DNA of 23,599 nucleotides from Baffinella frigidus (lineage: Eukaryota; Cryptophyceae; Cryptomonadales; Baffinellaceae): assembly GCA_026770585.1 (NCBI GenBank), contig MU647176.1, positions 110,370 to 133,968 of the forward strand, in the 5' to 3' direction. Each line of letters starts with the position of its first letter. The first letter of the stretch is position 1. The position numbers were made by a program, and so were the translations under genes. Positions 2,302 through 19,155 of the stretch are shown here, piece by piece. The notes below the pieces were generated by a model. The model saw only the letters and a list, made by a program, of their open reading frames with translations, did not search any database and was not told where the DNA came from.

Positions 2302-2352
2302 CTTTGGGGTTTGGGGTTTGGGGTTTGGGGTTTGGGGTTTGGGGTTTGGGGT
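2302..2352. repeat. Telomere-like (TTTGGGG)n array
   Basis: About seven TTTGGGG units on the plus strand. G-rich on plus, as are all other true arrays left of 11.5 kb. Confidence 0.95.
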
Positions 2353-2576
2353 GCAGGTAACAACACCGTTGGGGCCCTTATCGGCCAGGACGACGCGCCT
2401 CGAGACCAGCCAGGCTCTCGGCCCGGCGCATCTCCCCCAGCTCCACGGATCAGTCAACGAATCCGCGCAGAGATCAGTCAACCCTTGTTCGTGGGGTGAC
2501 GGATCAGTCAACCGTCGCGGTTGACTCACGCGCACGCACGAGTAGGTAGTCAAGTGAATCACTTTAACAAAAGGCT

Positions 2577-2735
2577 GAGGAAAATGAAGAAGCAGAAGAA
2601 GAACAAGAACCCGAACAAGAACAAGAACAAGAACCAGGACAAGAACAACAAGAAGAACAAGAAGAACACGAACAAGAACAAGAACAAGAACAAGAAGAAC
2701 CAGAAGAACCAGAAGAACAAGAACAAGAACAAGGA
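2577..2735. repeat. AAGAAC/AAGAAG hexamer-type satellite
   Basis: A long purine-rich, C-containing tandem repeat. It gives Lys/Asn-rich (plus) and Val/Leu-rich (minus) open frames. The 188-residue minus-strand frame over it starts within the exon-like segment 2744-2838 but is otherwise repeat translation. Confidence 0.9.
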
Positions 2736-2743
2736 TGACGCAC

Positions 2744-2838
2744 CGCGAGACGAGGGAGGCCTCCACGCGGCGAATCTCCTCCTCGAGACGGCGCTCCTCC
2801 CCCCCCTGCGCCACCCGCCGCGACACCTCCCGCTCCAC
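2744..2838 (-). CDS. Coiled-coil exon-like segment, VEREVSRRV type
   Basis: On the minus strand this 95-nt segment follows GATCGCAG and precedes GTGCGT. It reads VEREVSRRVAQGGEERR followed by LEEEIRRVEASLVSR: a charged, Glu/Arg-rich heptad-like peptide typical of an alpha-helical coiled coil. The length is not a multiple of three, unlike the other exon-like segments; a run of eight C on the plus strand lies inside it and may carry an indel. Shorter copies lie at 3027-3057, 3597-3619, 8033-8071 and, inverted, 8253-8291. Function unknown; it may belong to one coiled-coil gene spread over 2.7-11.9 kb or be a duplicated relic. Confidence 0.45.
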
Positions 2839-2858
2839 CTGCGATCCCGCGTCCGTCA

Positions 2859-2927
2859 ATATATATATATATGTATATATCTATATATATATGTATGTAT
2901 ATCTTTATATATACATATATCCGTCAA
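2859..2927. repeat. AT/GTAT microsatellite
   Basis: Imperfect (TA)n with TGTA and TCTA interruptions, A+T-only in an otherwise GC-rich setting. Confidence 0.95.
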
Positions 2928-3026
2928 TCTCCAGGCGGCGCTCCCCCTCCCCCTGCGAAGTCGAGAGTGAAACGTCTCAAAGCAAAAGTGGAACCTCCGA
3001 TAATTTAAGGTAAAACACCGACAGGT

Positions 3027-3057
3027 GCGCCACCCGCCGCGACACCTCCCACTCCAC
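3027..3057 (-). pseudogene. Fragment of the VEREVSRRV-type exon
   Basis: Minus strand, after CTTGCCAG: reads VEWEVSRRVA, then diverges. It keeps the acceptor AG and the exon 5' end only. A second fragment at 3597-3619 follows ATCGCAG (VEWEVSR) and runs into the CT microsatellite. Confidence 0.5.
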
Positions 3058-3059
3058 CT

Positions 3060-3480
3060 GGCAAGATATTTAGTGTCAATCGCCTGGAACGATATTCAGT
3101 TTGAATCTCATATGCAAACACTTGAATTTATAAAATTTGTCTGGGGCGATTTGGAGGATTTCAAGGTGAAATTCTTGAACTATGATCCGAATGGAAATCT
3201 CGAGAACGGATTCCAAGACCAACATTGAAAGTTTTTGCTTGGATATGCTCTCAGTTTTCAGCTCAGACATCGGGAAGGGTCATTTCGGAGAGGCGCAAAA
3301 TGACGTTGCTGTCAAAATTACTACGCAAGATTTGCAAAATTTCTTTTTTCCTCATTCCTGATTTTAAAACGATTCTCTCACACATAAACACATTCAGTTT
3401 AAATCTCAACCCTTGTGATGTCGTGGGGGTGGGTTATGAGCTATGGGGAAGCTATGCCGAGGCTCCTCCTCCAGTCTGGC
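3060..3480. other. No gene recognised
   Basis: A+T-richer sequence. It contains a decayed half of the core palindrome (AAAATTACTACGCAAG near 3317) and a 14-base match to a conserved SSU rRNA motif (AGGTGAAATTCTTG near 3164) that I do not consider sufficient to call rRNA. No splice-bounded coding segment found. Confidence 0.5.
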
Positions 3481-3483
3481 ACC

Positions 3484-3542
<59 letters not shown>

Positions 3543-3575
3543 CTCTCTCTCACTCTCTCTCTCTCTCGCTCTCTC
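3484..3575. repeat. CT microsatellite
   Basis: Nearly pure (TC)n with few interruptions. Between it and the element at 3845 I see no gene. Confidence 0.97.
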
Positions 3576-3844
3576 CTCTCCCTGAAAATCTCCAGCCACC
3601 GCGACACCTCCCACTCGACCTGCGATCTCCTTTGTTTAATTCGCCCTTTTGATTTGATTTAGATCACCTGAGCAAATTCCACAACACCCCTCCCACACAC
3701 AGCGCTTTGCAAAGTGGTTGGTCGCCAGTGCAATTGACAAGAACGATGTTGTTTTGAGCGACTGGAGTTTCGGTGTAGTTTTCGAGGAGGTTCACCTAAA
3801 ATCCTTGAAACAAAGTAACTACCATACGGTTCTGGTAGGCCCTA

Positions 3845-4048
3845 TTGTCGAAATGGGCTTCGCGCGGAATCGAGGTCAGGTCAGGAAATCAGATTTTTTC
3901 TCAAAAAATAGACTTTTATGCTATCTTAGGCATGGTTTTTATCTCAAAATAGCATCTCCCACCCATAAGATGACACAAAAAGGCAAAAAAATGGGGAAAT
4001 GTTGCTGACCTGACCTCGATTTTTTCCGCACGGAGCCCATTTCGACAA
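3845..4048. mobile_element. 204-bp TA-flanked foldback element, copy 2
   Basis: Same termini as copy 1 (TTGTCGAAATGGGCT...), same length, interior in the opposite orientation, TA on both sides (3843-3844 and 4049-4050). Confidence 0.88.
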
Positions 4049-4103
4049 TAGCGCCAGGAGACTCTCTCACCTCAGGAAATCCTGTCTAAAAAGGGGTTCT
4101 CTC

Positions 4104-4178
4104 CAACGAAATTTACTATGCAAACGCTTGACCATTACTAGCATGACCAAATTGTGTTGTAAAAATCTTTCTAGAGAT
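4104..4178. mobile_element. Decayed copy of the core palindrome
   Basis: CCAACGAAATTTACTATGC on the left and GTGTTGTAAAAATC on the right, with a loop (CATTACTAGCATGACCAAATT) like other cores. Adjacent 4170-4240 is a short duplicated stretch with GATCGTTGAAAAAAACCTTT twice. Confidence 0.55.
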
Positions 4179-4258
4179 CGTTGAAAAAAACCTTTTTCAA
4201 CGACCTCAGAGATCGTTGAAAAAAACCTTTCTAGAAATTCCTCGACACTTCCTCTCAC

Positions 4259-4354
4259 CTCACTCTCCACCGCTTTCCACCTCCGGGCCTGAGCGGCAAC
4301 ATCAGCCCACACCGCGAGTGCCTCCCGCGTCTCCAGCGCCCGCCCCGCCCTCCG
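4259..4354 (-). CDS. Coiled-coil exon, ALETREALAVWADV type, copy a
   Basis: Minus strand, 96 nt, between CCCCGCAG and GTGAGAGG, both good splice consensus. It encodes 32 residues, RRAGRALETREALAV then WADVAAQARRWKAVESE, phase 0 at both ends. The composition (Ala, Arg, Glu, no Pro) suggests a helical coiled-coil or spectrin-like stretch. A (CCCCAAA)n array on the coding strand lies directly upstream of the acceptor. Full copy at 6822-6917, 5'-shortened copies at 6629-6697 and 6405-6473, partial copies at 7523-7607, 4616-4651 and 4869-4902. The parent protein is not identified; a large repetitive coiled-coil protein is the simplest reading. Confidence 0.6.
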
Positions 4355-4358
4355 CTGC

Positions 4359-4432
4359 GGGGTTTGGGGCTTGGGGTTTGGGGTTTGGGGTTTGGGGTTC
4401 GGGGTTGGGGTGTGGGGTTTAGGGGGGTTTAG
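4359..4432. repeat. Telomere-like (TTTGGGG)n array abutting an exon
   Basis: TTTGGGG units with variants, G-rich on plus, so (CCCCAAA)n in the sense of the minus-strand exon 4259-4354; only the CCGCAG acceptor separates the array from that exon. Two short C-rich stretches on plus (about 4495-4535 and 4795-4850) are exceptions to the usual orientation. Confidence 0.85.
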
Positions 4433-4615
4433 ATTTCAGAGGGGAACTCCCCGCGCTCCGCTACGAGGGATCAGAGGGCGACTTCGTTCAGTCGCCGAAA
4501 CCCCAACCCCTGAACCGCTGACCCCGAAACCCGTGAGGCACGTTTCGGGTCTTGCCCCTGAAATGCTAACCTCTAAGCCCAAAACCCGAACGTGAGGCAT
4601 GTTTCGGGTCCTATC

Positions 4616-4651
4616 CTCCCGCGTCTCCAACGCCCGACTCGCGCTCCGCTC
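4616..4651 (-). pseudogene. Fragment of the ALETRE-type exon
   Basis: Minus strand reads RSASRALETRE and then diverges. No downstream half and no donor. The sequence beyond (ACCCGAAACATGCC) recurs beside the fragment at 4869-4902 and on plus near 2140, so fragment and flank were duplicated together. Confidence 0.5.
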
Positions 4652-4868
4652 CGAGGAGTGTAGAAGTGAACACCGTTCAGCGGTGAGGACGAGAACAGGG
4701 TGTTTTAAACTGTCCCACCCGACGATTACATGCGAAAACATGTTGAGTCTCGCGCTCCGCTGCGAGGGTACAGAGGGCGACTTCGTGTAGTCGCCGAAAC
4801 CCCAACCCCTGACCCGCTGACCGCTAACCGCTAACCCCGAAACCCGTGAGGCACGTGACGGGTCATAC

Positions 4869-4902
4869 CCTCCCGCGTCTCCAGCGCCCGCCCCACGCTC
4901 CG
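4869..4902 (-). pseudogene. Fragment of the ALETRE-type exon
   Basis: After CGCAG on minus: RSVGRALETRE, then diverges into the same flank as the fragment at 4616. Keeps the acceptor, lacks the 3' two thirds. Confidence 0.5.
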
Positions 4903-5100
4903 CTGCGAGGGTTCAGGGGAGAACGTCGTCCAGCGGCTGTATTCTTTTCTGTAAATTTGCGTGTATTAATATCATTTACATTTTCTAACAATATATAAAG
5001 TTCTTCGGGAAACCGTTGAAGGACTTTAAGAACGTTTCTATTATTATTTGTCGAGTATTTCATTACGGCGAGGCACGTTGTGGGTCCTACCATGCCGTAG

Positions 5101-5269
5101 CACACGAGGCTATCCATGCGAACATAACCAATGTCGATTGCACGCCTTTGCGTAGTAATTTTCATACGATTGGTCACGTGGCGCCCGAAAAGCGGGCGCC
5201 GCGTGACCAATTCTCCCCACAAAACGCTACAATCGACTTTTGTTCTGTTCGCATGGATAGCCTCGTGTG
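5101..5269. mobile_element. Foldback element, CACACGAGGCTATCC family, copy 1
   Basis: Termini CACACGAGGCTATCCATGCG and its inverse. The centre (5169-5212) is a long hairpin around GGTCACGTGGCGCCCG. Copy 2 at 15782-15960 has the same ends but a mostly unrelated interior, also with a central hairpin. Confidence 0.85.
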
Positions 5270-5363
5270 GTAACACCCAGCAGCACGTCCCGTCCTGCCG
5301 GGTCACTCGTGGTGTCGCCGCGGGATAACTAAACGGGCGTGTTCGCCACCGGGCCGGTCATCT

Positions 5364-5506
5364 AATTTCGGACCAAGACAGAATCTGTCCCGCTATCTTA
5401 GGCTCCCCACGCGGAAGGTAAGGGTGTATATGCTGTTTTAGGTATCAAATGATGCTATCTTACCCCTTTATGTCAGGACAGATTCTGGTATGGTCCGAGA
5501 TGAAAT
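5364..5506. mobile_element. Foldback element, ATTTCGGACC family, copy 1
   Basis: Left arm ATTTCGGACCAAGACAGAAT, right arm ending TATGGTCCGAGATGAAAT. The interior has CGCTATCTTAGGC and its partner ATGATGCTATCTTA. A copy lacking most of its left arm lies at 21107-21226. Confidence 0.75.
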
Positions 5507-5699
5507 CGTCGTGTGAACCGAAGGGGTCTGCACAAGTTTCTCCGGTAGCGCGGCCGCCGGCAGAGCGTTGTGCAGAGAAGTTGGCAACGGAAACGATCCA
5601 AAAAAAAAGAAACTTGACGGTGCTGGTCAAAAACGTCGACTTTCACCAACTTTGGATTATTTCGGTGGCCAACTTGTCTGCACAGCGCTGCACGCGTAC

Positions 5700-5795
5700 C
5701 TTGAAGCGCACGCGCGCGACGAGGAGGCAGCGCGCGCGCCACGCCCCCAGCACGCCCCGCACCCGCCTCACGTCCCGCGCCCGCCGCGCATTTCT
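5700..5795 (-). CDS. Arg-rich exon-like segment, VLGAWRARC type, copy 1
   Basis: Minus strand, 96 nt between GCCGCAG and GTACGCG, phase 0 both ends. It reads RNARRARDVRRVRGVL followed by GAWRARCLLVARVRFK. Copy 2 (7904-7999) has the same length and boundaries and is open in the same frame only, which supports this frame. The Leu/Trp/Arg spacing recalls helical, possibly calmodulin-type, repeat proteins, but no family is established. A third partial copy of the 3' end lies near 7764-7797. Confidence 0.5.
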
Positions 5796-5880
5796 CTGCG
5801 GCGCACGCAGAGTCAGGCACGAAAACACCGACTCCGTAGGAAAGAGCGTTCGCTACGCCCCCAGGACGCCCCGCACCCGG

Positions 5881-6046
5881 CACTTAGCAGCCACCGGGGG
5901 CTTCACGGCAGATGTCACGACCCGCGCCCGATGTCCCCCCGGATTCTCCGGAGAAATTCCGGTTGGAATCCATCGCAAAGGATAAGATTCAAGTGTAAAT
6001 CGTTTAGATGGACTGTATCCGCGAAGACCCCGGTGGCTGCTAAGTG
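5881..6046. mobile_element. Foldback element, CCACTTAGCAGC family, copy 2
   Basis: Begins CACTTAGCAGCCACCGGGGG and ends GCTGCTAAGTGG. Longer than the other copies owing to extra sequence near the left arm. Shares TTTAGATGGACTGTATCC with copy 1. Confidence 0.8.
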
Positions 6047-6400
6047 GCCAGCACCGCATGATAAACACTCTGTTTCGAGGAGTTGCCCGCCACTTCCTCT
6101 CACCTCCCACGCCAGAGTCTTCGAAGGGGTCGCCAAAAGTCAATTTCCCCTCAAGGGCAACGGTCTTCAAAAGTCAATACCGTACCCACATACGGTTTAA
6201 AATATTTTTCCCCTTCCTGCAGTCTGGCGTGGTCACTCTCCGCCACGTCCTCTCTCTGGGCCTCCTAGGGCCAACCGTGGTCCAAACACCACATCCTAAC
6301 CACCCTCAGATCGAGGATTTTTCCCACAGGTTATCACCTCACTCCCCGCCTTTTTTTTCGCCCACCCCTCAGATCCTGGAAGGAGTTCCCCGGCAAGGCA
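6047..6400. other. No complete gene; one possible exon-end fragment
   Basis: Near 6097-6110 the minus strand has GGCGTGGGAG|GTGAGAGGAAGTG, matching the donor region after exon 4259-4354, so another degraded exon copy is likely. Otherwise pyrimidine-rich unassigned sequence. Confidence 0.4.
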
Positions 6401-6404
6401 TCAC

Positions 6405-6473
6405 CTCATGCTCCGCCGATTTCCCCCTCCGGGCCTGAGCGGCAACATCAGCCCACACCACGACCGCCTCCCG
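6405..6473 (-). CDS. Coiled-coil exon, ALETREALAVWADV type, short form 1
   Basis: Minus strand, 69 nt, after GGTGATAG and before GTGATGCC, phase 0. Reads REAVVVWADVAAQARRGK then SAEHE. It lacks the first nine residues of the 96-nt form; the new acceptor GATAG is shared with 6629-6697. The intron between these two is 155 bp. Confidence 0.55.
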
Positions 6474-6821
6474 CTATCACCAACAACTAAAAAAGGGTTC
6501 CAATTCCTTTTAAAACAGGCACTCGTTTGATCATCTGCACCAGACTGAGTTGCTTTACAAAACTATACTTGGGGTCCGGCACTTTTTAAACTGTCTTCGG
6601 GTCGAAAAGTTCCCCGAGGCGGCCTCACCTCATGCTCCGCCACTTTCCCCCTCCGGGCCTCAGCAGTAACATCCGCCCACACCGCGAGCGCTTCCCGCTA
6701 TCACCAAACACTAAAAACAAGTTCCAATTCATTTTCAAACAGTCGTTTAATAGTGTCGGGACCCCAAGAATATTTTTGTAAAGCAACTCGTACTGATATA
6801 GATTGAAAGAAGTTCCCAGAC
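6474..6821 (-). repeat. Two short introns with related sequence
   Basis: Between exon-like segments 6405-6473, 6629-6697 and 6822-6917. Both introns (155 and 124 bp) begin GTGAGG/GTCTGG followed by GGGAACTT and end TTGGTGATAG. They contain TTTGTAAAGCAACTC in opposite orientations, the arms of the element seen again at 16721-16888. Confidence 0.5.
6629..6697 (-). CDS. Coiled-coil exon, ALETREALAVWADV type, short form 2
   Basis: Minus strand, 69 nt, after GGTGATAG and before GTGAGGCC, phase 0. Reads REALAVWADVTAEARRGK then VAEHE. Same boundaries and length as 6405-6473; reading frame kept despite substitutions. Confidence 0.57.
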
Positions 6822-6917
6822 CTCATGCTCCACCGCTTTCCCCCTCCGGGCCTGAGCGGCAACATCCGCCCACACCGCGAGCGCCTCCCGCGTCTCCAGC
6901 GACCGCCCCGCCCTCCG
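6822..6917 (-). CDS. Coiled-coil exon, ALETREALAVWADV type, copy b
   Basis: Minus strand, 96 nt, between CCCCGCAG and GTCTGG, phase 0. Reads RRAGRSLETREALAV then WADVAAQARRGKAVEHE. Most differences from copy a keep the helical character (W to G, S to H). A (CCCCAAA)n array abuts the acceptor, exactly as at copy a, so array, acceptor and exon were duplicated as a unit. Confidence 0.6.
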
Positions 6918-6975
6918 CTGCGGGGTTTGGGGTTTGGGGTTCAGGGTTGGAGGGTGGGGTTTACGGGGGTTTAGG
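6918..6975. repeat. Telomere-like array abutting exon copy b
   Basis: TTTGGGG units and variants, G-rich on plus. Followed by GGTTTCAGAGGGGAACTCC, which also follows the array at 4359-4432. Confidence 0.85.
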
Positions 6976-7074
6976 TTTCAGAGGGGAACTCCCCGCGCTC
7001 CGCTACGAGGCCTCCGCTGCGAGGGTTCAGGGGAGAACATCGTTCAGCGGCGAGGCGGGGAATGCCGAACCTTA

Positions 7075-7211
7075 ATCTCCATACAAGTATTAATTAATTG
7101 CTTTTCGGCAACGAAAATTACTACACGATTTGCTCATAAAAGTAATAGTAGAGCGTTTGTGTAGTAAATTTCGTTGCGCCAAAAGCGATTAATTAATACT
7201 TTTGTGGAGAT
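7075..7211. mobile_element. Shell-and-core foldback element, ATCTCCATACAAG shell, copy 1
   Basis: Outer arms ATCTCCATACAAGTATTAAT and inverse enclose the core GGCAACGAAAATTACTACAC (7107-7126) ... GTGTAGTAAATTTCGTTG (7159-7176). Same shell at 16153-16291 and 18062-18186. No ORF. Confidence 0.88.
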
Positions 7212-7297
7212 GAACCTGGGGTGTCGGCGACTCCAACGAAGAGAACATCGTTCAGCGGCGAGGCACGGTGTGCGTCCTACCATGCCGTGGTGGGGAT

Positions 7298-7450
7298 TTC
7301 ATCCGGACGAGTATTTGACTCAAATACGATTTCTAGGACCTGGCAACGAAAACTACTACACAATTGGTTCATAAACGTAATAGTAAAACCTGGTGTGTAG
7401 TAACTTTCGTTGCCAAGATCGTGTTTGAGTCAAATACGAGTCGCGATTAG
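7298..7450. mobile_element. Shell-and-core foldback element, CATCCGGACGAGTATTT shell, copy 1
   Basis: Outer arms TCATCCGGACGAGTATTTGA and TCAAATACGAGTCGCGATTA enclose a core with GGCAACGAAAACTACTACAC and GTGTAGTAACTTTCGTTGCC. Related shells at 10447-10621 (different interior) and 23268-23446 (core present). Confidence 0.87.
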
Positions 7451-7522
7451 GTTCAGGAGGACGGTTCAGGAAGTCCTCAGCATGCTGGTGGTGCTGAGGG
7501 GTGGGACCCTACACACTGAACC

Positions 7523-7607
7523 CTCCTTTCCCCCTCCGGGCCTCGGAAGCAACATCAGCCCACACCGCGAGCGCCTCCCGCGTCTCCAGCGCCCGCTCCG
7601 CGTTCCG
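7523..7607 (-). pseudogene. ALETREALAVWADV-type exon, 3'-truncated
   Basis: Minus strand, after CCCCGCAG: RNAERALETREALAV then WADVASEARRGK, then diverges into CTGAACCCTC before the donor. A short CCCTAAA/CCCCAAA stretch (7611-7632 on the opposite strand) abuts the acceptor. Confidence 0.5.
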
Positions 7608-7903
7608 CTGCGGGGTTTAGGGTTTGGGGTTCAGAGGGCAACTTCGTGTAGCGGCGAGACACGTTTCGAGTCGTAACATCCTACCCTGTCGCAGTACCCA
7701 GCAGCATAGCATCCCGTAGCGCCCGAAAGTGGGTCGACACCGAAAGGGGGGGCGGGAAGAATACCTTGAAGCGCACACGGGCGACGAGGATGCAGCTTCA
7801 CAGGAGAAATCTTAGGAGAAATTACTATGGCATAGGTAATTTCACTTATGAATCCTAATTAAATCAATTACCCCCCCCCCCAACAAACCTGGGTGGCGCG
7901 TAC

Positions 7904-7999: not shown

Positions 8000-8032
8000 C
8001 TGCGGTGCACGCAGGGTAAGGAAAGGAAACAC

Positions 8033-8071
8033 CAACGAGTGCTCCACCCGCCGCGGCACCTCCCGCTCCAC
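8033..8071 (-). CDS. VEREVPRRV exon-like segment
   Basis: Minus strand, 39 nt between TTTCCAG and GTGTTT, phase 0: VEREVPRRVEHSL. The same segment is inverted at 8253-8291 on plus, in the opposite arm of the inverted repeat. Pro in place of Ser (compare 2744-2838) would disturb a helix. Weak donor; may be a relic. Confidence 0.35.
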
Positions 8072-8252
8072 CTGGAAAGATATTTAGTTTGAATCACCTG
8101 GAAAAATTGTTTGGTTTACAGGCAAGATCTGGATCGAAGGACAGGCAGTAAGATCTGGATCGAAGGACAGGCAGATCGAAGGACAGGCAGTCCAGATCTT
8201 GCCTGTAAACCAAACAATTTTTCCAGGTGATTCAAACTAAATATCTTTCGAG

Positions 8253-8291
8253 GTGGAGCGGGAGGTGCCGCGGCGGGTGGAGCACTCGTTG
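8253..8291 (+). pseudogene. Inverted copy of the VEREVPRRV segment
   Basis: Mirror of 8033-8071 in the right arm of the inverted repeat, after TTCGAG instead of a CAG acceptor. Its orientation opposes every other exon-like segment left of 12 kb, so it is probably a by-product of the inverted duplication. Confidence 0.5.
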
Positions 8292-8338
8292 GTGTTTCCT
8301 TTCCTTGGGCGGAAATGCCTCTGGGCGAGGGAGGTAAC

Positions 8339-9101: not shown

Positions 9102-9418
9102 AAAGCACCCCCCTATCTCAGAATCTCTGAGAACCCCGCCCCCGCCCCCTTCCATTTTTTTTCAGAATACCGAATTGAGGACCAAATTGAGGGCTGAATT
9201 GAGGGGGTGGAAAAATAATGGCGAGGATGATGCTAATGAGCGATTCATCGTGCACCACCTGACGCGCCATGGACAGGTTTAGGGTTTAGGGTTTAGGGCT
9301 TAGGCCACCCAAAAGCCGATCGAATCCTGGTTTAGGCTTGAGGGTTCAGACATGGACAGGCAAGACCTGGCCCGCTGTCAGCGCAGCCATGCGCGTCGCT
9401 CAGCGCAGAAGGCTGTGT
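9102..9418. other. No gene recognised
   Basis: C-rich stretch, then a short TTTAGGG tract at 9274-9302 (four units, G-rich on plus) and a degenerate copy of the GGACAGGCAAGAC region. On minus, 9366-9400 resembles the end of exon 8747-8821 but has an in-frame stop. Confidence 0.5.
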
Positions 9419-9563: not shown

Positions 9564-9641
9564 CTCAGCCGCGTCACGCTGTTCTGTCATCTTTCCCGCC
9601 AAGCCTCGCAGGCACCGAACCCCCCCCCCGAGCCGTTCCAC
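9564..9641 (-). CDS. Coiled-coil exon, VERLGG type, copy 2
   Basis: Minus strand, 78 nt before GTCCTAGC, phase 0. Reads VERLGGGVRCLRGLAG then KMTEQRDAAE. Same length and frame as 9781-9858. Its acceptor side has been replaced by a foldback element whose terminus (GCTGCTAAGTGG) overlaps the exon's first bases and happens to supply an AG. It may therefore be skipped or mis-spliced by one base. Confidence 0.5.
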
Positions 9642-9771
9642 TTAGCAGCCACGGGGGGCTTCACAGATACAGTCAACCTTTTGTTCTAGAATCTTATCCA
9701 GTTGCCCTAGATTCTAACCGCCTTCCCCCCGGATATCCGGGGGGGGGAGGGGCTCGGCCGCTGCTAAGTGG
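9638..9771. mobile_element. Foldback element, CCACTTAGCAGC family, copy 3
   Basis: CCACTTAGCAGCC at the left, GCTGCTAAGTGG at the right, opposite internal orientation to copies 1 and 2. It lies exactly between two copies of the VERLGG exon, its left four bases coinciding with the exon edge. Confidence 0.83.
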
Positions 9772-9780
9772 TAGACTGAC

Positions 9781-9858
9781 CTCAGCCTCGTCGCGCTGCT
9801 CTTTCAGCTTGCCCGCCAAGCCTCTCAGGTGCCGGATCTCGCCCCCGAGCCGTTCCAC
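9781..9858 (-). CDS. Coiled-coil exon, VERLGG type, copy 1
   Basis: Minus strand, 78 nt between CTGCCCCAG and GTCAGTC, phase 0. Reads VERLGGEIRHLRGLAG then KLKEQRDEAE: regular Leu spacing with Glu/Arg/Lys around it, as in a coiled coil. Upstream (minus sense) a 321-bp intron made almost only of telomere-like heptamers joins it to exon 10180-10233. Protein family unknown. Confidence 0.6.
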
Positions 9859-10179
9859 CTGGGGCAGGATTGAGGGATGAGGGTTTGGGGATTAGGGTTT
9901 GGGGTTTAGGGGGTTGAGGGGTGAGGGGTTAGGGTTAAGGGGGTTGGGGGTTGGGGGTTGGGGTTTAGGGTTTAGGGTGTGGGTTGGAGGGTGAGGGTGG
10001 AGGGTGTAGGTAGGGTGTAGGGTTGAGAGTGTAGGGCTGAGGGTGTATTGTCGAGGGTGTAACGTTGAGGGTGTAGGGTGTACGGTGTAGCGTTGAGGAC
10101 GGAGGGCGAGGGTGTAGGGTGTAGGTAGGGTGTAGCGTCAAGGGTGTAGCGTTGAGGGTGTGGGGTGTAGGGTACGCAC
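9859..10179 (-). repeat. Putative intron made of telomere-like heptamers
   Basis: In the minus sense it begins GTGCGTACCCTACACC, continues as CCCTACA, CCCTCAA, CGCTACA, CCCTAAA and CCCCAAA units, and ends ATCCTGCCCCAG. Bounded by two in-phase exon-like segments. On plus it is TGTAGGG/TTTAGGG/TTGAGGG, the usual G-rich orientation left of 11.5 kb. Confidence 0.65.
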
Positions 10180-10233
10180 CTCGAGGTGGTGTCCAGACTG
10201 CGCCAGCCGCAGCTCCTCATTCAGCAGCACCAC
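10180..10233 (-). CDS. Coiled-coil exon, NEELRLAQ type
   Basis: Minus strand, 54 nt between CTTAGCAG and GTGCGTAC, phase 0. Reads VVLLNEELRLAQSGHHLE, helical with Leu/Val at heptad-like positions. Good splice consensus at both ends. Joined to 9781-9858 through the heptamer-repeat intron. No second copy seen. Confidence 0.57.
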
Positions 10234-10379
10234 CTGCTAAGTTGCCGGGAAGATGACTTAAGATAGTTGACTTAAGATGAAATGTCTGACTCGTCATCTC
10301 CGAGATGCACGTGACAACACGCCAATCCCCCGAGATTCACGTTACAATAAGAGTCAGCAATACGAGTCAGCAACCGTAT

Positions 10380-10876: not shown

Positions 10877-11029
10877 GATCGCTGATGCAGTGGCACTTTC
10901 AGAGCTTTGATGCTCCGCTGGGCTTTTATTTGTGGCATGGGGGAGGGGTTACTATCTTGGAATAGCACCCATGCCTAATATTCCGGGCAGGATTAGTACC
11001 AGAAACGGTGGTGGGTGGTTCTCTCGTTT
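10877..11029. other. No gene recognised
   Basis: Contains GCATGGGGGAGGGGTTAC and CACCCATGCC, possibly a degraded foldback. No splice-bounded coding segment seen. Confidence 0.5.
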
Positions 11030-11495
11030 AGGTTGTAGGGTGTGCGTTTAGGGTTTAGGGTTTAGGGTTTAGGGTTTAGGGTTTAGGGTTTAGGGTTCAG
11101 GGCTTAGGGCTTAGGGTTTGAGGTTTAGGGTTAGCGTTCAGGGTTTAGGGTTCAGGGTTTAGGGTTCAGGGTTTAGGGCTTAGGGTTTAGGGCTAAGGGT
11201 TTAGGGCTTACGGCTTAGGTGTCTCTCTTGTAGGGTTTAGGGTTTAGGGTTTAGGGTTTAGGTTTCAAGGTTTAGGGTTTAGAGTTTAGGGTTTAGGGTT
11301 CTATGGTTTAGGGTGTAGGGTTTAGGGTTTAGGGCTTAGGGTGTAGGGCTTAGGGTTTAGAGTTCTCAGTCTTAGGGTTTAAGGTTGAGGGTTTAGGGTT
11401 TAGGGTTGAGGGTGTAGGGTTTAGGGTGTAGAGTGTAGGGTGTAGGGTGTAGGGTGTAGGGTGTAGGGTGTAGAGTTCAGGGTTGAGGGTTAAGG
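11030..11495. repeat. Long TTTAGGG-type telomere-like array
   Basis: About 60 heptamers: TTTAGGG dominates, with TTCAGGG, CTTAGGG, TGTAGGG and TTGAGGG variants. It ends where coding-like minus-strand sequence (11477-11930) begins. G-rich on plus. The degeneracy and internal position argue against a chromosome end. Confidence 0.95.
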
Positions 11496-11930
11496 GTTTC
11501 TGGGGGATGCGGCGCCTGTTCGTCAGCGCAGAGGTGCCCCTGCGCCTTCAGACTATCCTCCAGCGCCTCCCACGCCGTCACGCTCCCCCTCCTCACCAAA
11601 TCCGCAGACAGATACTCAAACGTCCTCCCCCCCGCGCCTTCCCCCGCGGCGCCAGGCGCCTCCCCCCCCTCCGTCGGGCGCGCCTGGTTCCGCTTCCATG
11701 CCTTCGCTGCCTTGATTCCTCCCCGCGCCCGCAGGGATGTCGGGGAGGAGGCGGTGGACGATCGAGACGAGGAGAGGGCGGAGCCCTCAGACGGGACGAC
11801 GCCCGCTGCTTCGGCCACACTCCACTGCGTTTCCACGGGGGATGCGCGCGGCGAGTGCGCAGCAGCGGAGGACGCGCCGAGTTGGAGAGGACGTTCTGGA
11901 TGGGGGGATGGGGCCTGCCCGGGTGAAGGT
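11477..11930 (-). CDS. Hypothetical coding segment, possible upstream part of the coiled-coil gene
   Basis: An open minus-strand frame of about 150 codons. Its downstream part reads GGIKAAKAWKRNQARP, later RTFEYLSADLVRRGS and VTAWEALEDSLKAQGH, with helical, charged composition and strong GC bias. The upstream part is Ser/Pro/Ala-rich. The last few codons run into the heptamer array. A GTGAGG after SADL could be a donor. It lies at the right end of the minus-strand segments and faces away from the gene at 12892. No family recognised; the exact start is unknown. Confidence 0.35.
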
Positions 11931-12700: not shown

Positions 12701-12703
12701 TTG

Positions 12704-12891: not shown

Positions 12892-15800
12892 ATGCGTTCT
12901 CCAGCCTTCGTGATGCTCGCGGTCGTGCTGCAGCTCCCCCTCGTTCTCTCCTTCCAGCCCCAACCGACCACCCTTCGCACCAGGGGCGCCCTTGCTGTTT
13001 CCATGTGCGCAGCAGAGGGAAAGCAGCACCGCCGCGCCGCGATCCAATCAATGGCTACGCCGTTGATTGCTGCGGCTCTCGTCGCTGTGGGCCCCGGAAC
13101 GGCGCTGGAGGCGTCCGCTGAGCCGTTCGATGACGTTAAGGTGTGTGGAGGCTGCCCCCAAATTGCGTCGTTCTCTCGCCTGGAGCGATTCTGTAGCTTA
13201 TCTGGTGTTTCTCCTTTCTCCTTTGCCAAATTCCACCTTGTGGACCAACCCGGCTCCACCCACGAAGCAAGCCATACCGGGGCTTATATCGTGTTCCAAC
13301 CCGGCTGCACCCATGAAGCAAGCCATACCGGGGCTTGACCGGTGCCACCTGCAGGCGGCGCGCAGGGTGCTCGACAAGATGGATGCCATGATCGATGCCG
13401 AGCAGTGGGACAAGATCCGTACTTTGCTCAACAACCCTCCCCTCGCCTTCACTGGCCCTGGTAAGGCTCTCTCTCGCTAGCTCTGTCTCCGTGAATATGG
13501 GCTCCTCGTAAAATACATTTAGATCCACCCTGGAGGGAACATTATGGTATTTTGAGCATTCTTAAGTCAACTCCCCTTGAGATGCAGCCGTAATGCGGCT
13601 GCAACGTGATGAATGGATCTGGTACAAAAAGGTCCAATACGTATTTTTGTGGTATAAATCCTGTCAACTTTTGCGATAAAGGGTTATTCAAGATTGGCCG
13701 CAACTCCCCTCCAGGGCGGCAGGGCTCCGTACAAACGCTCCAGAGCAACGAGCATCTTTAGAAATTTATTCAACGCGGCCAGCTTAACCGAGGCAGCGCT
13801 AGGCTCTGTTCGCTTGTTCACGCTCGTGGCGGCGAAAGAAACTGGAACGAACCCTCTGACCTGCACCCTGTACCCTGTACCCTGTACCCTGTCCCCTACA
13901 CCCTACACCCTTTGTTCACGCTGGTGGCGGCGAACGAAACTGGAACGCACCCTCTGGCCTGCACCCTGTACCCTGTACCCTGTACCCTGTACCCTGTACC
14001 CTGTACCCTGAACCCTGTCCCCTACACCCTACACCCTACATCCTGTAGACGCCCTACACCTTGCACCCTACACCCTGAACTCTGAACCCTTAACCCTAAA
14101 CCCTAAACTCTGCACCCTATACCCCTACACCCCTACACCCCAAACACCAAACTCCAAACCCCAAACCCAAACCCCAAACCCCCAAAACCCTAAACCCTCA
14201 ACACTACCAGGCTCGATCGGAGCGGCGATGAAAGCAGCGGGGGCAACGTTGCCGAAGGGCATGCGGGGGGCAGCAAAGGTGCGACCAGCCCCAAGAGCGC
14301 GACCACAGTTTCCAGGTCCATTCATAGGTGCAGGGGTGAGCTCTCCTCGCGGTTTCCCGGGGGTGACGTTGCTGGAAGGCATGCGGGGGGGGGCAAAGGC
14401 ACACTCTCACCCCCCACACCCGACATCCCCAGAACTCAGAGGGCCAGAAAAGTGTTCTGGTACATTGATGTGCTTATCCGGGGAAACCTATTTTTCTTTC
14501 ATTTGATGGCAATCAAAATTGCTACACAGATTCTTTTATATTACTAATAAGAACGAATTGTGTAGTAATTTTCGTTGCCATCAAATGAAAGAAAAATAGG
14601 TTTCCCCGGATAAGTGCAAGGGGGTCTCGTTCCTCGCGGTTTCCCGGGGGCAACGTTGTCGAAAGGCATGCGGGGGGCAGCGAAGGTACTACCAAACCCC
14701 GCACCATAAATCTCATCTCAGAGTCATCTCAGACGACGTATTTTAAAAAGGGTTTCTCTAAATTCAACTCCCCCACAAAACCGTCAACTCAATATCGTAA
14801 AAATAAAACTCTCACGATAGCCGCTGGTACTCCCCTCGCGCAGGGGATCGGTGAGGACTTTTTGACGAACACTCGGCTGCTCGACACTTTCGTGTATAGC
14901 AACGTCTTCGTCGATGAAGGTCGGGTTAACACCATGTGATGCGTGCGGGCAGGGTGCGGAGAGAGAGAGAGAGAGAAAGTGTGTGTGTGTGAGAGAGAGA
15001 GTGTGTGTGTGAGAGAGAGTGTGTGTGTGAGAGAGGGAGAGAGAGAGAGTACACGCGGCTTCTCGACACTTTCGTGTACAGCAACGTCAACGTCGATGAA
15101 GGTACAACCCTGCCTTCGAAGTGGATCAAGTCGAGGATGTGTTGTCAGCCATTTCCCGTCTGCAAGGCTCGAAGTCGAACCCAATGGCAGCTGAAACCCA
15201 AACAGCTAAAATCGAGATTTGTACAGCAACGCGTCGATGAAGGTCGAACCCTGAAAGACCCGCGCCTGTCGACTTCTATGTGTTGTTCTAAGACGAATGG
15301 GAACTAGTATGAAGCCTTAGAACTAGGAAAATCGCTTATTGGTGCTGCCTTAGTACCAGAGAGCGCGGCCCACCGAGACAAAAGTCGAGAGTGGAACGTC
15401 TCAAAGCAAAAGTGGAACCTCTGTTAACTCAAGAAGTAACAGTGGAATACCTCGCATTGGTCAGCTGGCGTGGGACTGTCAAGTACAGCCCTGCCTTCGA
15501 AGTGCCTCTGGCAGACGTCTGCCAGAGGGAGGCATTGTCTTATATCCGAGGTCCTCGTGTAAGTGCCGAAAGTCAAACGTTGAAGAAGGACGTATCTGGA
15601 CGCGACTTGGTGCAAACGTTGACCATGAGAATGTTCAAAGGTGTGTCAAGCCCTCTATTGCAAATTTTGCGCCGAATCGCGTCCAAATCAGTCCTCCTTC
15701 AATGTTGGCTTTCTGCATCTCTGTAATGGTGTTCACCCGAGGCGGGCCCGTGTAAGTGCGCCTCCTGGGAGCTCTTGGGTCCACACGAGGCTATCCATGC

Positions 15801-17409
15801 GAACAGAATAAAAGAACAATTTAAAGTTTATGGGGAAATGATCACGTTTCCGTACGGATGTCCGTGCGGAAACGTGATCAAATGCTGACTTTTGGCGTGT
15901 TTCCTGGGCAATAATCCAATAGTTAACTTATGAATCTGTTTGCATGGATAGCCTCGTGTGGGCACCCTGGCTGTAAAGATCCCAGGCCGCCTGTATTTCC
16001 CCGGCACGAGCAACCCCACTAGGGTGGTCACGTTATCAAACATCAGAGTTCCCCACTACGTCGGAGTTCCCCTCCGAGTTACTGACCCATACTGGCTTCT
16101 GCCGCACGACGCTCCCTGCACATGACCTTCCTCGGCGCCCCTGATCAGGCTCATCTCCATACAAGTATTAATTAATTGCTTTTGGCGCAACGAAATTTAC
16201 TACACAAATGCTCTAATATTACTTTTATGAGCAAATCGTGTATAGTAAGTTTCGTTGCCCAAAAGCAATTAATGAATACTTCTATGGAGATTAAGCCACA
16301 ACATCGGTGGGAGTGCATGCATGGCGGCCGTGTTCGTAGTAAAAAAGGTCTCTCTTCTGCACTGTCCCCGAGCTTGCCGATCAGGTGCTGTGTGATGGGT
16401 AGACTCTGGCATCCCCCTCCACTATGAGAGTGGTGGTCCGGGAACCCTCACCCCTCACCCCTAACCCTAAACCCTAAACCCTGAACCCTGAACCCTGAAC
16501 CGCAACGTGCATCGCAGCAAGTGCTGGGCCTGAAGATTGACTTCAAGACCCCACCGGGGTCTTGAAGTCCCGGAAACACTAACCCCGAAACTCCGACCCC
16601 TGAACCGTAACGTGCAGCATGTTGGTTTCGATCCGTAACAAACGCAGTTTGCTCTTGCAACGCGGCAAGTGCTGTGCCTCAAGATCGAATTCAGGACCCC
16701 TTTGGGGTCTTGAAGTTCATAGCGACGCAAACCAGGGTGAGTTTTGTAAAGCAACTCGTTCTGGTACAAATTATAAAACGAGACCTCGTTTAAAAAGGAC
16801 TTGATTTTTTTTGGTTTTAAGTGATCTTTGTTTTACAATTTGTACCAAGAACGAGTTGCTTTACAAAACTCACCCTGGGTTGCGTCACTATTAAAGTTCG
16901 GGGTCTTTCCTTCCCAGAAACCCCAACCCCGAAACCCTAAACCCTGACCCGTATTTTTGAGCACGGCAAGTGCTGGGCCTCAAAATTGACTCCACTTCAA
17001 GAACCCCTCGTGATCTTGAAATCTCGGAAACCGTCACTCCGAAACCCTAAACCCTAATCTGTAATTGCAACGCGGCAAGGCCTAACCCCGAAACCCTAAA
17101 CCCTAACCCGTGACTTTCAGCGCGGCAAGGGCTGGGCCTCGAAATTGACTCCCATGACAAGAACCCCTCTGATCTTGAAGTCCCGGAAACAGTAACTCCG
17201 AAGGAAGCATGGCTTTTCTGCAGAACAAGTTCCGGTGTCCGCCTATGTTGGGAGCTCGAAGAACCTGAAGGACCTAAAGGACCCTAAACCCTAACCCGTA
17301 ACTTTCAGCGCGGCAAGTGCTGGGCCTCAAAATCGATTTCAAGACTCCGAAGAACTACCTCAAGGGTGCGAAGCAAGCGCTCGATGAGTTCATCGAGTTG
17401 GGTGCTTAG
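12892..17409 (+). CDS. Nuclear gene for a thylakoid-lumen protein, four exons (PsbQ-like?)
   Basis: Exons 12892-13140, 13355-13460, 14821-14919 and 17309-17409 (249, 106, 99, 101 nt) give 184 residues plus TAG. Introns of 214, 1360 and 2389 bp are GT-AG and in phases 0, 1, 1. Residues 1-20 are a signal peptide (core VMLAVVLQLPLVLS); Phe21 follows the likely cut (S|FQP), the mark of complex red-lineage plastids. Residues 21-46 are transit-like. Arg47-Arg48, a hydrophobic stretch (58-67) and ALEASA|E (cut after 76) form a Tat-type thylakoid signal. The mature ~108 residues are helical: AARRVLDKMDAMIDAEQWDK, IRTLLNNPPLAF, LLDTFVYSNVFVDE and YLKGAKQALDEFIELGA. Length, lumen targeting and the ending recall PsbQ-like photosystem II extrinsic bundles; this is inference. 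Exon 3 start is chosen by phase (GATAG acceptor, weak pyrimidine tract); CAG at 14843 would break frame. Confidence 0.75.
13245..13336 (+). repeat. Duplicated 41-bp unit at the end of intron 1
   Basis: CCAACCCGGCT.CACCCA.GAAGCAAGCC...GGGGCTT occurs at 13245-13285 and 13296-13336, within intron 1 and close to its acceptor (CACCTGCAG at 13346-13354). Confidence 0.9.
13461..13860 (+). other. First part of intron 2
   Basis: Begins GTAAGGCTCTCTCTCG. A CTAGCTCTGTCTCCGTG terminus at 13477 belongs to the CTAGCTCTGCC family. AGCCGTAATGCGGCT hairpin near 13586. No exon-like segment. Confidence 0.5.
13861..14200 (+). repeat. CCCTGTA/CCCTACA/CCCTAAA array in intron 2
   Basis: A unit TTGTTCACGCT.GTGGCGGCGAA followed by (CCCTGTA)n and (CCCTACA)n is present twice (about 13812-13912 and 13911-14040), then CCCTAAA and CCAAACC variants. 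C-rich on plus, the sense of the host gene; opposite to all arrays left of 11.5 kb. Confidence 0.92.
14216..14700 (+). repeat. Repeated GGCATGCGGGGG unit in intron 2
   Basis: AACGTTGCCGAAGGGCATGC, ACGTTGCTGGAAGGCATGC and AACGTTGTCGAAAGGCATGC mark three copies (about 14248, 14367, 14652); the latter two share CTCGCGGTTTCCCGGGGG. The third is separated from the second by the foldback element 14474-14613. On minus the frame reads APRMPFGNVAP-like peptides, but no splice frame supports coding. Confidence 0.6.
14474..14613. mobile_element. Shell-and-core element, TTATCCGGGGAAACC shell, copy 1
   Basis: Outer arms TTATCCGGGGAAACCTATTT and inverse; core GGCAATCAAAATTGCTACAC ... GTGTAGTAATTTTCGTTGCC. 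Flanked by GTGC on both sides (14470-14473, 14614-14617), a probable 4-bp target duplication. Inside intron 2. Confidence 0.9.
14957..15049. repeat. GA/GT microsatellite in intron 3
   Basis: Alternating (GA)n and (GT)n blocks, immediately before the second copy of exon 3. Confidence 0.95.
15048..15101 (+). pseudogene. Second copy of the 3' part of exon 3
   Basis: TACACGCGGCTTCTCGACAC through CAACGTCGATGAAG|GTACAA matches the end of exon 3 (14870-14919) and its donor. Read after one of the AGs of the GA tract it is 54 nt, phase 1 at both ends, and encodes YTRLLDTFVYSNVNVDE. It could be spliced in without breaking frame, but is more likely a by-product of local duplication. A shorter third copy with donor lies at 15220-15242 (TACAGCAACGCGTCGATGAAG|GTCGAA). 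Confidence 0.6.
15243..15781 (+). other. Intron 3, unassigned stretch
   Basis: Holds a GTCGAGAGTGGAACGTCTCA block (15383-15402), also at 2959-2978 with one change, and a CCTCTGGCAGACGTCTGCCAGAGG-type hairpin at 15504-15527. A 111-codon open frame (15391-15726) has no splice or homology support. Confidence 0.5.
15782..15960. mobile_element. Foldback element, CACACGAGGCTATCC family, copy 2
   Basis: CACACGAGGCTATCCATGCG and inverse at the ends, as at 5101-5269. Central hairpin TGATCACGTTTCCG ... CGGAAACGTGATCA off-centre to the left. Apart from the ends and the TCACGT motif the interior differs from copy 1. Confidence 0.85.
16153..16291. mobile_element. Shell-and-core element, ATCTCCATACAAG shell, copy 2
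   Basis: Same shell as 7075-7211. Core loop in the opposite orientation: ATGCTCTAATATTACTTTTA here against GATTTGCTCATAAAAGTAAT there. Inside intron 3. Confidence 0.88.
16440..16500 (+). repeat. CCCTAAA/CCCTGAA array upstream of an exon-4 pseudo-copy
   Basis: C-rich on plus. Leads directly into pseudo-copy A of exon 4 (ATCGCAG|CAAGTG). Confidence 0.85.
16518..16553 (+). pseudogene. Exon 4 pseudo-copy A
   Basis: CAAGTGCTGGGCCTGAAGAT... after ATCGCAG reads QVLGLKIDFKTP, identical at the protein level to the start of true exon 4, then leaves it. The sequence beyond folds: GACTTCAAGACCCC with GGGGTCTTGAAGTC. Confidence 0.75.
16666..16701 (+). pseudogene. Exon 4 pseudo-copy B
   Basis: CGCGGCAAGTGCTGTGCC...: QVLCLKIEFRTP. 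No AG directly before it; followed by the same GGGGTCTTGAAGT. Confidence 0.6.
16721..16888. mobile_element. Foldback element, AGTTTTGTAAAGCAACTC family
   Basis: Arms from GCGACGCAAACCAGGGTGAG and GTTTTGTAAAGCAACTCGTT to CTGGTACAAATT, inverse from 16832. Related arms lie in the short introns at 6530-6600 and 6740-6800. Confidence 0.85.
16967..17165 (+). pseudogene. Exon 4 pseudo-copies C, D and E
   Basis: C (from 16967) CAAGTGCTGGGCCTCAAAAT; D (17071) CGCGGCAAGGCC, very short; E (from 17121) CGCGGCAAGGGCTGGGCC after TGACTTTCAG. Each is followed or preceded by CCCTAAACCCTAA and CCGGAAAC.GTAACTCCGAA, showing a tandem unit of array, acceptor and exon start. All lose the frame after ~12 codons. 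Confidence 0.65.
17281..17308 (+). promoter_or_regulatory. 3' splice site of intron 3 built from a telomere-like repeat
   Basis: ACCCTAAACCCTAACCCG then TAACTTTCAG directly before exon 4. CTAAC 15-20 bases from the AG is a plausible branch point. The same array-plus-acceptor occurs before pseudo-copy E. Confidence 0.6.
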
Positions 17410-17448
17410 GCCGTGTGTGAGGACGGAGCCCTAGGAAGGTTGGGTGCG

Positions 17449-17552
17449 TATCCCTTAAGTGACCAACGGGCGAATAATCGCCCGTGGAAGCCTTGGGCAG
17501 GTCCTAGGGCCCTACGGTAGGGCGTATGAGCCTACTGGTCACTTAAGGGATA
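17449..17552. mobile_element. Foldback element, TATCCCTTAAGTG family, copy 2
   Basis: TATCCCTTAAGTGACCA and inverse at the ends; CCTAGGGCCCTACGGTAGGG and a CGGGCGAATAATCGCCCG hairpin inside. 40 bp after the stop codon of the lumen-protein gene, so probably in its 3' UTR or terminator region. Confidence 0.8.
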
Positions 17553-17676
17553 CCCTGGGGTGAGAGTCAAGCTGCAACAGGGGTTTCTCCAAGGCATGGA
17601 GAGGGACGTGCGCGTGCGTGGGTGCGTGGGTGCGTGGGTGCGTACGCTAGGGAGGGTACATGTAGGTGTACACGGT

Positions 17677-17720
17677 GGAAGCAAACGCCCTCGACCATTT
17701 CATCGAGTTGGGCGTACGCT
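17677..17720 (+). pseudogene. Copy of the lumen-protein C-terminal coding end
   Basis: GAAGCAAACGCCCTCGACCA TTTCATCGAGTTGGG...TAG reads EANALDHFIELGVR and stop, against AKQALDEFIELGA and stop in exon 4. The 3' flank of the gene (CCGTGTGTGAGGAC.GAG.CCT) is also repeated, at 17819-17841. A local segmental duplication. Confidence 0.65.
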
Positions 17721-17814
17721 AGCGCCCCCCCCCTAGGACCACCATAGGGCCCTAGGCATAGGGCTACTGTAGGGTCCTAGGAGGAGGCTCTTTCTGATGA
17801 GCGAGGTGCCCCTG
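17721..17814. mobile_element. Left-truncated 117-bp CAGGGGTACCTCGC element
   Basis: CCCTAGGACCACCATAGGGC ... GAGCGAGGTGCCCCTG: right end and interior of the family below, the left terminus missing and fused to the copied C-terminal coding end. Confidence 0.7.
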
Positions 17815-17917
17815 TTGGCCGTGTGTGAGGACAGAGTCCTGGAAAGGGCCCGCCTCGGGCAAGGAGGAGGAGTATGTTCCCTCACACCCTCTACGAGGAC
17901 ATCGAGTTGTGTGGGTA

Positions 17918-18034
17918 CAGGGGTACCTCGCTCATAAGAAACCGCCGCCCCCTAGGACCCTACAGTAGGCCTATGTCTAGGGCCCTATGGGGGTCCTATG
18001 GGGGTGGGCGTTTCTTGTGAGTGAGGTACCCCTG
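17918..18034. mobile_element. 117-bp foldback element, CAGGGGTACCTCGCTCA family, copy 1
   Basis: CAGGGGTACCTCGCTCATAA and GTGAGGTACCCCTG at the ends; CCTAGGACCCTACAGTAGGC inside. Same length as 19794-19910. Almost the whole element is one imperfect palindrome. Confidence 0.85.
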
Positions 18035-18061
18035 TAGAGGCCCTGAGGCCGGACCGAACTA

Positions 18062-18186
18062 ATCTCCATAGAAGTATTAATTAATTGCTTTTGGGCAACG
18101 AAAATTACTACACGATTTGCTTTTACAAGTAATAGTAGAGCATTTGTGTAGTAACAAAAGCAATTAATGAATACTTTTGTGGAGAT
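18062..18186. mobile_element. Shell-and-core element, ATCTCCATA shell, copy 3, core truncated
   Basis: Left shell and left core arm intact; on the right GTGTAGTAAC joins directly to AAAAGCAATTAATGAATACT, losing ATTTTCGTTGCC of the core arm. Confidence 0.87.
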
Positions 18187-18229
18187 GAGAATGTCTACAT
18201 AAATTACTTCTCTCCGCCCGAGGGGGGCC

Positions 18230-18369
18230 TTATCCGGGGAAACCTATTTTTCTTTCATGTGATGGTAACGAAAATTACTACACGATTCGTTTTTATTAGT
18301 AAGATTCAAGCATTTGTGTAGTAATTTTCGTTGCCATCAAATGAAAGAAAAGTAGGTTTCCCCGGATAA
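18230..18369. mobile_element. Shell-and-core element, TTATCCGGGGAAACC shell, copy 2
   Basis: Same shell as 14474-14613, with core GGTAACGAAAATTACTACAC ... GTGTAGTAATTTTCGTTGCC. GGCC on both sides (18226-18229, 18370-18373), a second independent 4-bp duplication. Confidence 0.9.
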
Positions 18370-18405
18370 GGCCCGTCCTAGAGTCCTCACACCCTGTCAT
18401 GTGAA

Positions 18406-18552
18406 AAGCTAACGCCAGCGAGGTACTTAGGGCCTACGGATTGCCTACGGTAGGAGCCCACCTTCTACGACTTTTAAACTCATTTTTTTTTAAACGTCGT
18501 AGGAGGAGGGGGGGTTGCTACCGTAGGCTAAGGGGTCCGCTGGCGTTAGCTT
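18406..18552. mobile_element. Foldback element, AAGCTAACGCCAGCG
   Basis: AAGCTAACGCCAGCG and CGCTGGCGTTAGCTT at the ends, GCCTACGGTAGGAGC and a TTCTACGACTTTTAAA hairpin inside. Confidence 0.85.
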
Positions 18553-18658
18553 GTGGCGTTACCTGGAAGCAGGCTCTTTGCGTGCAGGGGTACATGTACA
18601 GGCTTATCTGGGCCATAAGAAAACAGAACTTAAGAACACAGACCGGACTTGGGTCCCC

Positions 18659-18736
18659 CGTTTTCTTAATTTCGTACCATAGGGTTGACAAAATCTTGCG
18701 TTTGGTCAACCCTGTGGTACTAAATTAAGAAAACAG
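18659..18736. repeat. Hairpin around GTTTTCTTAATTT
   Basis: GTTTTCTTAATTTCGTACCA and AGGGTTGAC pair with GTCAACCCT and GGTACTAAATTAAGAAAAC. Non-coding. Confidence 0.85.
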
Positions 18737-18783
18737 ACACCGACCGACGTCGGAGCAACCGTGTTGTTATAGCCCAGGTACCC

Positions 18784-18882
18784 CTGTACCTCGCTCATAA
18801 GAAAGTGCCACCCCTCGCACCCTACAGTAGGCCTATGCCTAGGGCTCTACGGTGGTCCTAGGGGTGGGGGCAGTTTCTTAAG
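18784..18882. mobile_element. CAGGGGTACCTCGCTCA family, right-truncated copy
   Basis: CTGTACCTCGCTCATAAGAA to CAGTTTCTTAAG; the right terminus is replaced by the heptamer array that follows. Confidence 0.75.
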
Positions 18883-18884
18883 AA

Positions 18885-19155
18885 CCCCAAACCCCAAACC
18901 CCAAACCTCAAACCTCAAACCCCAAACCCCAAATCCCAAACCCTACACCCTACACCCTACACCCTCCACCCTCCACCCTCCACCCTCCACCCTAAACCCT
19001 ACACCCTACATTCGACCATAAACCTTCAACCTTCATCCTTCACCCTCAATGCTAAACCCTCAACCCTAAACGCTAAACGCTAAACGCAAAACGCTCAACC
19101 CTAAACGCTAAACGCTAAACCCTAAACCCATAAACCCCAAACCCTAAACCCCTGT
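18885..19155 (+). repeat. CCCCAAA/CCCTACA/CCCTCCA/CGCTAAA array
   Basis: About 38 heptamers of several variants in homogeneous blocks. C-rich on plus, as in introns 2 and 3. No exon recognised at its 3' end; TGCGTGGGTGCGTG repeats follow, as at 17605-17640. Confidence 0.93.

Follow-up and report, generated by a model that had tools for sequence, protein, structure and literature searches.

Telomere-like heptamer arrays occur inside a 23,599-nucleotide (nt) stretch of contig MU647176.1 from the Arctic cryptophyte alga Baffinella frigidus, referred to here as the window, and their orientation is suggestive of a tie to gene strand at this locus. We give roughly even chances to the reading that these interstitial heptamers are found mostly at intron 3' ends, that splicing has kept them C-rich in the sense strand, and that local duplication has multiplied them. 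We scanned the window for runs of three degenerate CCCYAAA units in tandem, allowing at most 4 mismatches in 21, and found 16 tracts, 8 of them G-rich and 8 C-rich on the plus strand. Among 20 dinucleotide-preserving shuffles of the window, 18 held no tract and 2 held one. The G-rich tracts (2303, 4356, 6919, 7609, 9278, 9870, 10145 and 11040) all lie left of 11.51 kb, and 7 of the 8 C-rich tracts (4494, 14020, 16451, 16914, 17038, 17282, 18885 and 19043) lie right of 14.0 kb. Exact heptamers left of position 12892, the ATG of a rightward gene, comprise 51 that are G-rich on plus (34 TTTAGGG, 17 TTTGGGG) versus 1 that is C-rich, while to the right of that ATG there are 25 C-rich (14 CCCTAAA, 11 CCCCAAA) versus 2 G-rich. 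All 16 tracts are non-terminal runs of tandem telomere-type units with unique sequence on either side, and in this respect resemble interstitial telomeric sequences. The arrays with no recognised acceptor beside them, and the tract that runs against the pattern, are as follows.

2303 to 2358, minus strand: (CCCCAAA)7 array, adjoining no recognised acceptor.
11026 to 11503, minus strand: the longest array, C-rich on minus, adjoining no recognised acceptor and holding 15 AG.
18883 to 19155, plus strand: C-rich-on-plus array downstream of the rightward gene, adjoining no recognised acceptor.
4494 to 4514, plus strand: the discordant tract, C-rich on plus although it lies in the left half; found by the scan, with a sister near 4797-4845 read by eye.

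An earlier sequence-only reading had listed arrays that flip strand at a divergent promoter. Each of them was recovered to within a few bases or less, and the flip holds: the G-rich tracts end by 11503 and the C-rich ones resume at 13860, flanking the ATG. The exceptions it named near 4510 and 4820 are also real, although only the first passes the scan; by eye, they are copies of one segment. The array at 13861, of CCCTGTA/CCCTACA type, was detected by Tandem Repeats Finder and missed by the stricter tract scan. Unit variety is high, the 16 tracts containing 47 CCCTAAA, 29 CCCTACA, 26 CCCCAAA, 12 CCCTGAA and 10 CCCTCAA units along with others.

The rightward side is anchored by a deposited gene model, in which one array occupies the end of an intron.

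12892 to 14939, plus strand: rightward gene of the deposited model, with exons at 12892-13140, 13355-13460, 14211-14278 and 14844-14939.
13461 to 14210, plus strand: intron 2, 750 nt, of which the final ~350 nt (13860-14208) consist of heptamer variants, C-rich in sense.

Splicing the four exons across GT..AG introns gives exactly the deposited 172-residue hypothetical protein of Baffinella frigidus (P0001). The last heptamer unit of intron 2, CCCTCAA, stops 9 nt short of the final base of the intron, and the dinucleotide AG appears 22 times in the 399 nt upstream of the array versus once in the 349 nt of the array itself. Intron 2 thus has an AG-poor array adjoining an annotated 3' splice site. 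The protein matched no Pfam family above cut-off (GPR15L, Dppa2_A, TetR_C_6 and, at E 1.9, PsbQ lay below threshold), no relative among solved structures (best E 0.53) and none in viral_contigs. Its single-sequence fold was of insufficient quality for a structure search, with a mean predicted local distance difference test (pLDDT) score of 41, and its leader may be plastid-targeting. Pieces of exons 3 and 4 recur within or just past the introns of this gene (14647-14685, 15053-15103 and 15233-15247), so that duplication of exon fragments extends beyond the units that bear arrays.

The orientation of the arrays, G-rich on the left and C-rich on the right, is also that expected of a head-to-head fusion of two subtelomeres, in which internal arrays keep their direction and the junction falls between 11.5 and 13.86 kb. 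This alternative had been raised with the original claim, and it is not favoured here. The junction array is missing, as the innermost arrays stand 2.36 kb apart with deposited exons 1 and 2 filling the gap between them, and a fusion predicts neither arrays beside acceptors on both strands nor copies that carry the start of an exon. We consider it very improbable.

Downstream of the deposited model, a second array-bearing unit leads into a candidate final exon of the same gene.

16436 to 17308, plus strand: unit B, in a six-segment alignment, comprising 5 partial copies (short array, acceptor-like site and exon start) and then the copy at 17282-17308.
17309 to 17409, plus strand: putative true last exon, ending in RQVLGLKIDFKTPKNYLKGAKQALDEFIELGA and a stop, absent from the deposited model.

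We infer that exon 4 would end at 14919 and join 17309-17409, which would leave an open frame encoding a 199-residue protein ending in KQALDEFIELGA. The 3' end of the predicted intron before 17309 reads CCCTAAACCCTAACCCGTAACTTTCAG. The copies in unit B each join an array to an acceptor-like site and the start of an exon, and the tracts of unit B are therefore counted as one unit below.

On the left side, the ab initio segments look like exons of a single coiled-coil gene read on the minus strand, and they repeat the arrangement of an array before an acceptor.

10180 to 10233, minus strand: putative exon (ab initio), VVLLNEELRLAQSGHHLE.
9859 to 10179, minus strand: putative intron (ab initio), 321 nt, heptamer-like nearly from its donor GTGCGT to its acceptor CTGCCCCAG.
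9781 to 9858, minus strand: putative exon (ab initio), VERLGGEIRHLRGLAGKLKEQRDEAE, with a diverged copy at 9564-9641.
9276 to 9305, minus strand: short array ~16 nt before an acceptor-like site, CGTCAG/GTGGTG, read by eye.
4259 to 4424, minus strand: unit A (ab initio), in which the array at 4356-4424 runs into CCCCGCAG/CGGAGG and is followed by a 96-nt exon-like segment at 4259-4354.
2744 to 2838, minus strand: exon-like segment (ab initio), 95 nt.

In these ab initio calls, CAG precedes and GT follows each of the segments at 10180-10233, 9781-9858 and 4259-4354, all three of which are a whole number of codons long. Five acceptor-like sites, which belong to three unrelated units, share the design of array before acceptor, again by ab initio reading. 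Within the putative intron at 9859-10179 there is 1 internal AG in 319 nt, versus 36 on the antisense strand. Of the two directions of transcription that had been proposed, the rightward one is supported by the deposited gene model, while the leftward one, between 2.7 and 11.5 kb, is suggested by exon-like segments that matched no database protein of ~136-432 residues. Searches with the region 9700-10300 returned no matching phage record. A nearly perfect inverted repeat at 8018-8306 (116-nt arms, 99% alike, 57 nt apart) also encloses an exon-like segment.

A constraint on splicing could account for the orientation through the composition of the unit itself. The C-rich unit contains neither AG nor GT, and the TTTAGGG unit carries UUUAG/GG. 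In the sense strand, the pyrimidine-rich and AG-free CCCUAAA/CCCCAAA unit would occupy the sequence just upstream of an acceptor and create no false acceptors, while in the G-rich sense every TTTAGGG unit would offer UUUAG/GG as one. G-rich-sense RNA could also fold into quadruplexes or be bound by UAGGG-type silencing factors. Units tolerated in this way may then have been multiplied by local duplication, with their orientation inherited. Across 15 sense tracts (1333 nt, with 11026 and the discordant tract excluded), there are 5 AG versus 21.3 expected from composition; the same tracts hold 22 GA, and their antisense strands 136 AG. This scarcity fits a splicing constraint, and avoidance of AG and avoidance of G-quadruplexes cannot be separated at this locus. 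GT is not depleted (14 versus 6.6 expected in the intron 2 array, 5 versus 2.2 in the leftward intron), as expected if the constraint acts on acceptors and not on donors. The arrays had further been proposed to supply CTAAC branch points, which is possible and unproven, with just 7 CTAAC across the 16 tracts.

It could instead be that the heptamers only resemble telomeres, and that C-rich, AG-poor branch-point and pyrimidine tracts expanded in place by replication slippage. The position of arrays at intron 3' ends and the high variety of units beside CCCTAAA would suit such an origin, and the telomere repeat of Baffinella was not found in the literature searched. Against it, the period stays at 7 nt, CCCTAAA is the most frequent unit at sites unrelated to one another, and some arrays lie away from acceptors (2303, 11026 and 18883). 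We regard slippage as unlikely. Another possibility is that the polarity of replication or transcription, rather than splicing, sets the strand, because one orientation is less unstable at forks or forms fewer RNA-DNA hybrids. The C-rich sense makes the G-rich strand the template, on which quadruplexes would be expected to hinder the polymerase more, and polarity gives no reason for arrays to lie at 3' splice sites; both points count against this account. In its favor, interstitial telomeric tracts in yeast are reported to be unstable to a degree that depends on their orientation (PMC6410037). We judge it improbable.

The strongest rival to orientation kept by splicing is duplication without selection. 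A few ancestral intron ends with a C-rich tract would have spread within the gene, so that the agreement in strand is inherited and orientation is unselected. Alignments of units A and B show that array, acceptor and exon start were duplicated jointly. The 96-nt segment of unit A recurs with its array at 6822-6967 and 7510-7640, giving three array-bearing copies, and recurs partially, without the full array, at 4 more places. Together with the six segments of unit B, the copying of rightward exons 3 and 4 inside introns and the small number of independent units, this gives duplication alone a real, if minor, share of the probability. Against it, the five acceptor-adjacent units (intron 2, 9859-10179, 9276, unit A and unit B) cannot be aligned with one another outside the heptamers, and 5/5 are nonetheless C-rich in sense (sign test, 0.03).

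Copying also governs how the orientation bias should be counted. Fifteen of the 16 scan tracts have the orientation expected from the presumed strand of the gene (0.0003), a figure inflated by copies; many tracts are duplicates of each other, and counting tracts overstates the evidence. When tracts related by copying were merged by hand into independent units, array strand followed presumed gene strand in 8/9, with the leftward gene called ab initio. The concordant units are 2303, unit A, 9276, 9866-10173, 11026, intron 2, unit B and 18883, and the discordant one is 4494 with its sister near 4800. The proposed link to introns and their 3' ends gains partial support: arrays adjoin acceptors in both orientations, one of these is a deposited splice site and most C-rich-sense tracts are nearly free of AG, while independent units are few.

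Several observations weigh against retention of the C-rich sense by splicing. The sample is small, and the 8/9 units reach just 0.02 in a one-sided sign test. Just one unit falls inside a deposited intron, in the model of an unnamed hypothetical protein for which no transcript evidence was seen. The leftward exon-like segments, joined end to end, gave no match at E up to 10 among the 7997 candidates scored, which were database proteins of ~136-432 residues; deposited models shorter or longer than this would have escaped the search. Units 2303, 11026 and 18883 adjoin no recognised acceptor, and of these the 11026 tract is AG-rich (15 versus 9.3 expected) but the 18883 tract has none (0 versus 3.2 expected), so AG scarcity does not cleanly follow distance from an acceptor. 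The scarcity is also due in part to the unit itself, inherited by copies. Lastly, a protein-database proxy, which was queried with both peptide forms of a CCCCAAA/TTTGGGG array, gave a raw count of 38 matches C-rich in sense versus 82 G-rich among the best 120 of 1922. These hits were mostly open reading frames from unnamed metagenomes, the one named Baffinella protein among the matches listed was C-rich in sense, and we treat the proxy as uninformative. Two bacterial-named proteins, P0044 and P0104 (a Flavobacterium glycosyltransferase and a penicillin-binding protein 1A), contain CCCCAAA/TTTGGGG-type peptide repeats, which indicates that the heptamer expands outside eukaryotes too. CCCTAAA arrays are present in 17 viral contigs of viral_contigs.

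The arrays share features with several known systems. Like vertebrate interstitial telomeric sequences, some of which are intronic, they are telomere-like tracts inside chromosomes. In humans, 31% of such sequences lie in introns, a proportion consistent with random insertion, and the effect of intronic telomeric repeats on splicing is named as untested (PMC7215372). Unlike the human sequences, the degenerate tracts of the window lie against acceptors and are consistent in strand. The telo boxes of plants (AAACCCTA motifs) place the same heptamer within genes, but as single motifs that are enriched in 5' untranslated regions and below expectation in introns, according to the available part of PMC3022908; the window has arrays at intron 3' ends. 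Mammalian intronic transposable elements also show a strand bias, which is ascribed to selection on splicing, but they are scarce near acceptors (PMC3088655), whereas the arrays of the window adjoin acceptors. The putative intron at 9859-10179 resembles introners in being repeated sequence nearly throughout. It differs in that no defined ends or target duplications were identified for it, and no empty site was available for comparison; the main text of one introner paper, as available, contains no cryptophyte or telomere term (PMC9860276). Strand-biased telomere-like arrays at intron ends are unreported in the titles and abstract openings searched, and no report of one-way, acceptor-adjoining arrays travelling with duplicated exons was found in the literature searched, most subscription papers lying outside it.

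The window holds other repeats as well. Palindromic elements share the core ACTACAC..GTGTAGTA, with cores at 1535, 7120, 7355, 9016, 12748, 18107, 18277 and 23329 (8 found as pairs) and further elements at 14473-14614 and 16146-16290. Their outer inverted arms differ in family, which gives the impression that a single core was placed into several longer inverted repeats. A palindromic repeat core from the window had no match in viral_contigs or genome_contigs. A second family (832-1046, 3902-4056 and 22264-22473) occurs in both orientations with copies 91-95% alike and resembles a short inverted-repeat transposon. The window opens with a run of 70 G (1-70), possibly an assembly artefact, and a scan with Rfam found no family at gathering scores.

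Strain CCMP2293, which is described as belonging to the same species as a strain of B. frigidus, has an assembly that spans 534.5 Mb and is 41.1% repeats (PMC9756366); the terms 'intron' and 'telomer' were not found in the main text of that paper as available. If the bias seen here is genome-wide, a genome of 534.5 Mb would contain numerous natural replicates, with one strand of a telomere-like repeat tolerated at acceptors and the other purged, and repeat expansion would be tied to the gain of introns and exons in cryptophytes. It is conceivable, though we hold it doubtful, that this alga generally builds introns from such arrays: inserted or expanded in the C-rich sense, they would provide ready-made, AG-free 3' ends, with some introns consisting of array almost throughout, and portable acceptors that help multiply exons. 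Were this true, the gain of both introns and exons would be linked to telomere-type DNA throughout the genome.

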